Made by a program: the position numbers and the translations under genes. The notes beneath the pieces are model-generated. The model was not told the origin of the DNA, ran no database searches, and was given only the letters and a program-made list of their open reading frames with translations. 36,410 nucleotides of DNA from Nocardiopsis halotolerans DSM 44410 (GTDB taxonomy: Bacteria; Actinomycetota; Actinomycetes; Streptosporangiales; Streptosporangiaceae), in the NCBI RefSeq assembly GCF_000341065.1, contig NZ_ANAX01000160.1, forward strand, positions 1 through 36,410, in the 5' to 3' direction. Of the stretch, positions 33,956 to 36,159 are shown piece after piece; position 1 is the stretch's first letter, and the number at the start of each line of letters is the position of its first letter.

Positions 33956-34744
33956 ATGGATGATCGGACACACCTCGCGGACGTGTTGCGAGGGGTACTC
34001 GGCGCGCTGCTCGACCTGCTCCTCCCGCAGCCCTGCGCGGGGTGTGAGGGCCCCTCGGGGCCGCTGTGTACGGACTGCCTCACCGCGCTGTGGTGTCGTC
34101 CCCACCGGTGCGCGCCGCGTCCTGGCTGTCCGCCCGTCTGGGCGGCCGGTCCCTACGCCGGGCGCCACCGCGGGATCCTGCTCGCCTACAAGGAGGGCGG
34201 TGCGGACGCCCTGGCGGCGCCCCTGGGCGGTCGGCTGGCCGCCGCCTACACCGCGTCGGGCCTGGCCTCCCCGGACACCCTGCTCGTCCCCGTGCCCGGA
34301 CGCGGACCGCCGCGTGATCCCCGGGCGCCGGTCACCCGGCTGGCACGCGCCTGTCTGGCGGAGGCGGGCGGCGCGAACGCCGGAAGGGTGGCGCCGCTGC
34401 TGCGCTACCGGGGGCGCCCCCGGCGCCAGGCCGGTCTGGGACGCGCCGCACGCCTGGCCAACCGGACGGGTGTCCTCGTCGCCGACCGCGCGCCCGCGGG
34501 GGTTCCCGGCACGGCGCGCGGAGCGGCGGTCGTGGTGGACGACGTCCTCACCACGGGAGCCACGGTGGCCGAGGCGACCCGGGCGCTGAGGGCCGGTGGG
34601 TTCGGGGTGGCGGGCGCGATCGTCCTCCTGGAGAGCCTTTCCGGAGGCGCCGCCACCCGGACGGCCGGTACCGGGGCGGCGGGTGCCGGACCACCGCGCA
34701 TCAGGGTGCCGAGCCGGGCAAGAAGGTTTTACGAACCCTCCTGA
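33956..34744 (+). CDS. comFC: ComFC/GntX-like phosphoribosyltransferase-fold protein
   Basis: This 262-aa protein has an N-terminal double CxxC zinc-binding motif (QPCAGCEGPSGPLCTDCL, about 25-42). AAGPYAGRHRGILLAYKEGG follows, then the PRPP-binding loop AAVVVDDVLTTGATVAEA (about 191-208), and a C-terminus in RRFYEPS. ComFC-family proteins assist DNA uptake in competent bacteria; in actinomycetes the function is untested, and the gene is conserved between lpqB and hpf. Members usually carry R.QaGL before the PRPP loop; here RPRRQAGLGRAARLAN is present. The start is ATG 33956 with only a weak ribosome binding site. It is followed by a 746-bp noncoding region. Confidence 0.9.
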   Translation: MDDRTHLADVLRGVLGALLDLLLPQPCAGCEGPSGPLCTDCLTALWCRPHRCAPRPGCPPVWAAGPYAGRHRGILLAYKEGGADALAAPLGGRLAAAYTASGLASPDTLLVPVPGRGPPRDPRAPVTRLARACLAEAGGANAGRVAPLLRYRGRPRRQAGLGRAARLANRTGVLVADRAPAGVPGTARGAAVVVDDVLTTGATVAEATRALRAGGFGVAGAIVLLESLSGGAATRTAGTGAAGAGPPRIRVPSRARRFYEPS

Positions 34745-34779
34745 ACAGGCGAAAAGTCCACGTGCGCAAGGATTTGCGA

Positions 34780-34841
34780 CTGTTACCAACGAGTTGGGAA
34801 GGTGGTCGCCACCTGACATCCTCGCCGGGACAGGTTACGGT
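34780..34841 (+). promoter_or_regulatory. Promoter with dyad and GTTAC elements upstream of the hpf leader
   Basis: CTGACA (34813-34818), a 17-bp spacer and TACGGT (34836-34841) form one of the best vegetative promoters in the window, predicting a start near 34849. AGGTGG-TCG-CCACCT (34800-34814) is a perfect dyad abutting the -35. GTTACC lies at 34782-34787 inside the 12-mer CTGTTACCAACG (shared with the mtrA upstream region), and a second GTTAC (34834-34838) overlaps the -10. Control by MtrA is a reasonable inference. Confidence 0.6.
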
Positions 34842-34848
34842 CACGGTA

Positions 34849-35490
34849 TGGCACCCGTCCGGGTCCGTGGTTGCGTCGGAGATTGTGAGCCCCCGGGAAC
34901 ACCGGGGCGCCGCTCCGGCAAGCCGATGCCAGGCGCAGGCGAAACGGCCCACGTAAGGCGACTTTTCGTCGACCGATCACGGTGCGCCTTAGAGGTAAGT
35001 CCTGCCCCGCGGAGGGTCCAGATGTCCCTCATGACAGGGAGAAGAGCAGTAGTCGCGGACAAGAGCGGCGACACTCTCAGCAGGCGGATGTGGGGACGAA
35101 GACCAGGTCGGCCGGACGGGTGGCATCCCATCGCCCGGGGGTCCGCCAACGGCGGACTCCCGGAGACGGCTCCCTCACACCCCGCCCGTGGGGGCCGCCA
35201 CACCGCGGTCCCGAGCGGCCGGTGGGTGCCCGAGGGATGCCTTGTCCCCATCGTTCCCGACGTCCTTTCCCCCAGTTCGGCGGCTGTCGGCAATCGTGCC
35301 CGTGGGGCGCGTGATGACACCGCTGCTGGTGGGTATACGCATCTCCAACCGAGCCGTGCCTCCGACAGGACGGGGGCACCAGCGGAAGGGGGCTAGCGCG
35401 CGACACCCCTTCCGCCCCCCTGGCGGCGGAAGGGACGCAGAGCCAGCCTGGCCGTCGCCTTCACGACGGCCACGCGATGAAGGGGGTCCT
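34849..35490 (+). ncRNA. Long structured leader upstream of hpf; candidate raiA-type RNA
   Basis: About 640 nt lie between the predicted start and the hpf ATG with no credible gene. Visible structure: a 13-bp stem with AAC loop at 35135-35163 (one G-T pair); alternative small stems around CCCTC at 35028-35032, which can pair with GAGGG just upstream or with AGGGA just downstream; competing hairpins at 35382-35434; and an 8-bp hairpin at 35449-35472. Bacterial raiA RNAs are structured noncoding RNAs reported upstream of raiA/hpf in Firmicutes and Actinobacteria, often after comFC, exactly this context. I cannot match the consensus from memory, so the class assignment rests on position and structure. 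The hpf frame is open back to 35188, but without a suitable start or ribosome binding site. Confidence 0.4.
35382..35434 (+). promoter_or_regulatory. Two mutually exclusive hairpins before hpf
   Basis: CCCTTCCGCC (35407-35416) is perfectly complementary over 10 nt to GGCGGAAGGG downstream (35425-35434). The overlapping CCCCTTCCGC (35406-35415) is perfectly complementary to GCGGAAGGGG upstream (35382-35391). Only one stem can form at a time. The hpf ribosome binding site AAGGGGG (35480-35486) is also complementary to the CCCCTT part. This resembles a switching expression platform acting on hpf translation or transcript processing. No T run follows, so simple intrinsic attenuation is less likely. 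Confidence 0.5.
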
Positions 35491-36159
35491 ATGGACATCA
35501 TCGTCAAGGGTCGACGCACCGGTGTGAGTGACAAGTTCCGACAGCACGTCGACGACAAGCTCGGCAGGCTCTCCAAGTGGGAGAAGAAGGGCATGACCGT
35601 CGACGTGGAGGTGTCCAGAGAGCGCAACCCCAAGCTCGCCGACGTCTGCGAGCGGGTTGAGCTGACCATCCGGACCAACGGCCCGGTCATCCGCAGCGAG
35701 GCCGCCTCCTCCGACCGGTACGGCGCCCTCGACATGGCGGTCGACAAGATCGAGGCCCGTCTCCGTAAGGCCGCGGACCGCCGTAAGGTCCACCGCGGCA
35801 ACCACGCTCCCGTCTCCGTCTCGGCCGCGACCGCCGACCTCCCCGGAGACCTGCCCCCGGTCGCCACCGCCACGCAGGCTCCCCCGGCCCAGCGCAGCGG
35901 AGAGGAGGTGAGCGGCGGCCCCGAGACGGTTGAGAGGTTCTCCGACGAGTTCGTCGAGCTCGACACGCAAGGGGACGTCCCCGTCATCGTCAGGGAGAAG
36001 TTCCACAGGGCCAAGCCCATGAGCATCGACCAGGCGCTGATGGAGATGGAACTCGTGGGCCACGACTTCTACCTCTTCCACGACGAGGTCAAGGACGCCC
36101 CGAGCGTCGTCTACCGGCGCAAGGGCTTCAACTACGGAGTCCTCCGGCTCGTCGACTAG
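35491..36159 (+). CDS. hpf: Long-form ribosome hibernation promoting factor (HPF/RaiA)
   Basis: This 222-aa protein inactivates ribosomes in stationary phase or stress by dimerising 70S into 100S particles. The N-terminal ribosome-binding domain (1 to about 105) starts MDIIVKGRRTGVSDKFRQHV and includes KLGRLSKWEKKG and DMAVDKIEARLRKAADRRK. A variable linker (about 110-160) is followed by the C-terminal dimerisation domain (VIVREKFHRAKPMSIDQALMEMELVGHDFYLFHD, then VVYRRKGFNYGVLRLVD), which defines the long form. ATG 35491 follows AAGGGGG (35480-35486) and an 8-bp hairpin (35449-35472). In relatives secA follows; the window ends before it. Confidence 0.96.
   Translation: MDIIVKGRRTGVSDKFRQHVDDKLGRLSKWEKKGMTVDVEVSRERNPKLADVCERVELTIRTNGPVIRSEAASSDRYGALDMAVDKIEARLRKAADRRKVHRGNHAPVSVSAATADLPGDLPPVATATQAPPAQRSGEEVSGGPETVERFSDEFVELDTQGDVPVIVREKFHRAKPMSIDQALMEMELVGHDFYLFHDEVKDAPSVVYRRKGFNYGVLRLVD

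Follow-up and report, generated by a model that had tools for sequence, protein, structure and literature searches.

The raiA RNA, or ModT (RF03072), carries the Rfam label 'Cis-reg; riboswitch'; in C. difficile it works in trans, and cis action has been excluded there (PMC11706538). The 5′ leader of Synechocystis lrtA, a homologue of hpf, keeps the transcript stable in the dark and impedes translation (PMC4956104). Promoters of the SigB homologue have been measured in S. coelicolor, among them SCO7446p with the layout GTGATG-N14-GGGTAG (PMC8346170). Furthermore, the raiA-hairpin (RF03059) is located just upstream of hpf in Actinomycetota, and switches that sequester the ribosome binding site, translational riboswitches included, consist of two exclusive helices sharing a strand upstream of a gene.

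To our knowledge, the control of the level of the hibernation factor, the silencer of idle ribosomes, is poorly known in actinomycetes. Here, the hpf locus of Nocardiopsis halotolerans DSM 44410 was analyzed within a window comprising the whole 36,410-nt stretch of contig NZ_ANAX01000160.1. For comparison, a sample of 69 leaders was used, from 40 genomes of the genus and 29 other genomes of the family sharing the hpf promoter. Homologues of hpf were present in 40 of 40 Nocardiopsis-type genus genomes and in 197 of 200 family genomes. In the window, a comFC-like gene at 33956–34744 (phosphoribosyltransferase motif VDDVLTTGAT) is followed by raiA RNA and then by hpf, which is the known gene order around raiA RNA. 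The features are as follows:

34854–35120, forward strand: raiA RNA (RF03072), 141.6 bits as compared to a gathering threshold of 101.3, full model (1–209 of 209)
35137–35161, forward strand: strong hairpin after raiA RNA, −22.1 kcal/mol, z −4.2, no U tract
35311–35336, forward strand: SigB-type hpf promoter, GTGATG (−35, 35311–35316), N14, GGGTAT (−10, 35331–35336)
35356–35379, forward strand: hairpin P1 close to the leader 5′ end, 35356–35364 with 35371–35379
35382–35392, forward strand: strand A, purine-rich and Shine-Dalgarno (SD)-like, GCGGAAGGGGG; 5′ arm of the alternative hairpin A:B
35406–35416, forward strand: strand B, the pyrimidine-rich shared strand, CCCCTTCCGCC
35425–35434, forward strand: strand C, GGCGGAAGGG; 3′ arm of hairpin P2 (B:C)
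35446–35475, forward strand: hairpin P3, 35449–35457 with 35464–35472, outer pairs 35446–35447 with 35474–35475
35480–35486, forward strand: SD of hpf, AAGGGGG; AAGGGGGTC nearly invariant in 50 aligned leaders
35491–36159, forward strand: hpf (raiA) coding sequence, an ORF for long-form hibernation promoting factor, MDIIVKGRRTGV...

The reading we favour, with a probability of roughly 0.55, is that hpf possesses a structured leader with its own SigB-type stress promoter, separate from raiA RNA, in which P1, P2 and P3 form the resting fold, the SD is open and strand A may serve as a dock for the 30S subunit. Transcription from this promoter, with a start site predicted from the sequence near 35343, would yield a 5′ UTR of about 148 nt. 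In its resting fold, with P1 and the constitutive hairpins P2 (B:C) and P3 formed, the SD AAGGGGG would be left open and strand A would be single-stranded enough for non-productive docking of 30S subunits, as a standby site or decoy. The locus looks like an ordinary structured leader driven by a stress promoter rather than a proven switch. The leader is new, and Synechocystis lrtA, which likewise has a long structured 5′ UTR, provides a precedent for an hpf-family gene whose structured leader modulates expression; however, the lrtA leader comprises 312 nt, the portion of that source used here reports no arrangement of the A/B/C kind, and a relation at the sequence level is not expected (PMC4956104). 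A stress promoter combined with a conserved structured leader and a non-initiating SD-like block represents a concrete candidate for a post-transcriptional input for hpf.

The promoter supports this reading, as it does not vary within the genus and occurs only once in the genome. GTGATG-N14-GGGTAT is in accordance with the criterion for SigB-type promoters, namely a G-rich −10 GGGTAT, a GNNT/GTTT/GTGA-like −35 and a spacer of 12–15, and it shares the layout of the Streptomyces SigB-homologue promoters (PMC8346170), although start site and sigma factor in Nocardiopsis are assigned from the layout of the sequence. GTGA-N16-GGGTATAC has a single exact match in the whole 6.26 Mb genome. GGGTATAC was found at all 40 genus hpf loci and is invariant across the 69 leaders, a set selected by GGGTATAC[AG], and GTGA of the −35 does not vary among the 40 genus leaders. 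In family genomes lacking this promoter (e.g., L084, L095–L103), raiA RNA abuts hpf.

P3 is the best supported element of the leader as judged from sequence comparison. It ends 4 nt 5′ of the SD and folds at −19.4 kcal/mol (z −5.0). In 50 leaders, two-sided changes were observed in 6 of the 9 main-stem pairs, in 37 cells as compared to 6.0 in shuffles, and the hairpin was significant in 38 of 40 genus leaders and 25 of 29 others. A covariance model built on P3 matched, at E < 1e-14, the hpf leaders of those family genera that bear the promoter, with part of the match strength stemming from the SD and gene start that the model includes. In its own genome the model gave one strong match, that to hpf; a weak second match to P3/SD was seen on contig C47:2336–2394 (−) at E 5e-4. 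P1, near the leader 5′ end, folds at −16.8 kcal/mol (z −4.3; 0 of 200 shuffles equal it) and, judged by eye only, is conserved in relatives.

The first-pass annotation had described a central block able to pair perfectly with an upstream or a downstream partner, with its CCCCTT portion also complementing the SD. All three pairings are indeed present in the sequence, with the block shifted by one base. A:B is a perfect helix of 10 bp between GCGGAAGGGG (35382–35391) and CCCCTTCCGC (35406–35415), and B:C is a perfect helix of 10 bp between CCCTTCCGCC (35407–35416) and GGCGGAAGGG (35425–35434). Folded alone, the A:B hairpin reaches −21.0 kcal/mol (z −3.2; equalled by 1 of 200 shuffles) and the B:C hairpin −23.3 kcal/mol (z −4.7; equalled by 0 of 200), and with either one forced, the B:C fold lies 5.1 kcal/mol below the A:B fold. 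The strength of two partners around one strand exceeded that in 100 of 100 dinucleotide shuffles of this sequence; this statistic exaggerates, since any strong hairpin raises it, and it was superseded by tests with swapped and shuffled A.

With regard to relatives, all 40 Nocardiopsis-type genus leaders possess B:C, whereas about two thirds of them retain A:B, with a few compensatory changes. In the 26 distinct leaders with a CCUUCC-type B, 97.6% of cells are paired in A:B and 96.8% in B:C, with 3 and 2 two-sided pair changes, respectively, against 0.7 each in shuffles. That A:B is kept there as well as B:C, including three two-sided changes, speaks against the favoured reading, as a passive leader needs none. 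The same values, about 97% pairing and two-sided changes in both helices, are an argument for a true three-strand switch, which we regard as unlikely: here, temperature, ribosome occupancy, a protein or a ligand would regulate A:B versus B:C, and the A:B state would lower hpf translation, for instance by means of the freed C run 35415–35420 pairing with the SD. This pairing does occur in the forced A:B fold of the present sequence and would make a logical off state; moreover, in roughly one leader out of four the forced A:B and B:C folds are at most 2 kcal/mol apart, and in L030 a change in A restores a Watson-Crick pair with its own B. Over the 40 leaders, the difference between the forced folds ranges from −5.4 to +11.7 kcal/mol, most favouring B:C, which is in line with P2 as part of the resting fold.

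The switch is opposed by the fate of A:B elsewhere in the genus and beyond. One clade, comprising about 12 leaders (L012–L040-type), has a B that became CCCUCCC or similar and a C that changed along with it, while A is mostly unchanged; A:B is reduced to 6–9 bp there, mostly with a mismatch or bulge. Mismatches in A:B were also found in L027/L029/L033/L034 and in L002. Counted by eye along the tree, changes in A that restore pairing and changes that disrupt it are about equally frequent: the former comprise an A-U/G-C exchange at the first A:B pair, L015 and L030, the latter L002, L027/L029/L034, L033 and L038. Nor is the C run kept in basal or L012-type leaders, which led to its rejection as a loop anti-SD, and a known aptamer is missing. 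In other genera, A:B pairing was no better than with swapped or shuffled A, the median fraction of shuffled A equalling the pairing of the leader's own A with B being 0.75 outside the genus and 0.05 within. The A:B values of L045 and L050 from other genera are unreliable in this test, since the automatic choice of P2 took an A:B-like hairpin there. By eye, upstream alternative partners for the 5′ arm of P2 can be seen in L044/L046, L045, L048 and L050/L051, with wholly different sequence, e.g., GCGGAG / CUCCGC / GCGGAG. As B:C is present in all 40 genus leaders, while A:B is lost in a clade and unmatched outside, A:B is genus-limited and dispensable. The mutually exclusive hairpins proposed in the first-pass annotation therefore hold in part: both are kept in about two thirds of the leaders, whereas A:B is degraded in a whole clade and unmatched outside the genus. 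The annotation had named conservation of a single pairing in relatives as a finding that would refute it, and this is largely what the comparison revealed, with B:C in 40 of 40 leaders and A:B degraded by clade.

Translational riboswitches share the two exclusive helices with this locus but differ from it in three respects: this leader is without a known aptamer, its SD lies outside both helices and one of its helices is kept in only some of the relatives. The position of the SD bears directly on the earlier claim that the hairpins control access to the ribosome binding site, which is not supported. The SD belongs to neither A:B nor B:C, and its predicted openness is about equal in all leaders. 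The pairing of B with the SD (−13.6 kcal/mol) was at chance level, 37 of 100 shuffled B being equally good, so that the SD was discarded as a third partner of B, and forcing B:SD in this sequence yields a fold 9.4 kcal/mol above the best alternative. This corrects the earlier interpretation in that conservation concerns P3, P2 and the SD-like block, and not SD-covering hairpins; across the family, it extends to the SigB-type promoter, strand A and P3. A terminator/antiterminator arrangement was rejected as well, with no U tract or terminator-like site in 34750–35520.

Strand A is the lead worth testing. It is a purine block resembling an SD, GGAAGGGGG in the genus and GGAGAGGAGG in other genera; in the window it contains, at 35386–35392, a second copy of AAGGGGG besides that of the SD at 35480–35486. 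In 67 of 69 leaders, the block starts between −94 and −114 relative to the start codon, a position that is set regardless of the sequence of strand B. Its anti-SD pairing is mostly −14 to −17 kcal/mol as compared to about −12.7 for the real SD, which it surpasses in nearly all leaders. The distance from promoter to A varies from 44 to 97 nt (by eye), whereas that from A to the start codon is almost fixed, which argues for a role at the level of RNA or translation; an RNA-level role is thus likely from the sequence comparison. The block may be a ribosome standby site or decoy, and it could also be a target of a protein or RNase. An upstream ORF behind the block was rejected, as there is usually no start codon within the next 24 nt. 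A class-wide check for an upstream SD-like block gave mixed results, 54 of 76 loci being better than a control stretch; the block is strong in Streptomyces-, Kutzneria- and Actinoplanes-type loci and weak where raiA RNA abuts hpf. Contrary to the docking of 30S assumed in the favoured reading, the predicted openness of the block is only about 0.29 in the genus; in other genera it is 0.49.

The near invariance of A also underlies another explanation, which we consider rather improbable, namely that A:B is a functionless by-product. Here, A would be kept for its likeness to an SD while C would be purine-rich through its pairing with B, so that A resembles C and A:B comes free. It is in line with this that A stays nearly invariant whatever the sequence of B, that B:C covaries while A stays, and that genera in which A and B are unable to pair have an A that is just as SD-like. 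Contrarily, B could have drifted from A in those clades where such drift is absent, and the replacement of G-C by A-U in the first A:B pair as well as the change in L030 are not accounted for.

Within the favoured reading of a structured leader, A:B may still arise transiently. Since B is transcribed before C, A:B is possible before B:C, and the nascent RNA of most Nocardiopsis may form A:B first, with a later rearrangement to B:C; the part masked by A:B would be block A and not the real SD. The bistability of A:B and B:C is in silico, and any effect of A:B on translation is putative. As a long shot, the hpf leader might be a sensor of idle 30S subunits, in which the non-initiating block A docks free 30S and A:B/B:C hides or exposes the dock in Nocardiopsis; if so, the hibernation factor would be made in proportion to unoccupied ribosomes.

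Among known families, the raiA-hairpin offers a parallel in layout. An Rfam scan detected RF03059 at 66–71 bits in Streptomyces-type loci, and in L199, L206 and L207 it is flanked by a purine SD-like block, some 110 nt ahead of the start codon, and by a second hairpin in front of the gene, a layout matching that of the Nocardiopsis leader. However, P2 and P3 of Nocardiopsis differ from it by sequence, and RF03059 was not found in the 196-nt leader region (35325–35520), even at E 10. No known Rfam family scored above threshold inside this region, and leader matches to 6C, mir-1281 and similar families were rejected as far below threshold.

That a dimeric transcription factor reads the inverted repeats as DNA operators located past the transcription start is very improbable: GCGGAAGGG does occur in three copies of alternating orientation, but in relatives the arms change from CCUUCC to CCCUCCC with complementarity retained, a pattern that fits RNA and does not fit a DNA site read by a protein.

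Regarding raiA RNA, the first-pass annotation had seen no known riboswitch aptamer upstream, which is contradicted by the match to RF03072 at 34854–35120 (141.6 bits). By means of a landmark at its 3′ end, raiA RNA was located ahead of hpf in 68 of 69 leaders, 97–356 nt before the −10. The hairpin at 35137–35161, of which similar sequences follow raiA RNA in relatives, is the probable 3′ end of its transcript, and raiA RNA is probably on a transcript separate from that of hpf. As a large separate ncRNA, it differs from the competing hairpins, which lie 261 nt past its end and beyond the promoter. Because of the hairpin, the variable gap of 97–356 nt and the promoter in between, raiA RNA is unlikely to be the aptamer of the leader. 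The weakest explanation, that the leader is the expression platform of a raiA RNA riboswitch in cis, would profit from the finding that nearly all relatives have raiA RNA ahead of hpf and from its Rfam filing as a cis-regulatory riboswitch, but in view of the intervening promoter, that gap with its hairpin and the action in trans of the C. difficile homologue (PMC11706538) it is very improbable.

Some minor observations concern the surroundings. Two adjacent C-rich hairpins at 35136–35203 are weakly 6C RNA-like (23.9 bits, threshold 47). One further record, L108 (NYMS01000012.1), is titled Glycomyces fuscus and carries a Nocardiopsis-type hpf locus with 88% identity; it is probably misnamed. 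Finally, a weak start-codon hairpin over the SD and start codon is possible at 35476–35505 (GAUGA..UCAUC, GUCC-UAU-GGAC); its z is only −1.2 and its sequence is near-invariant across genera, which may be caused by coding constraint.
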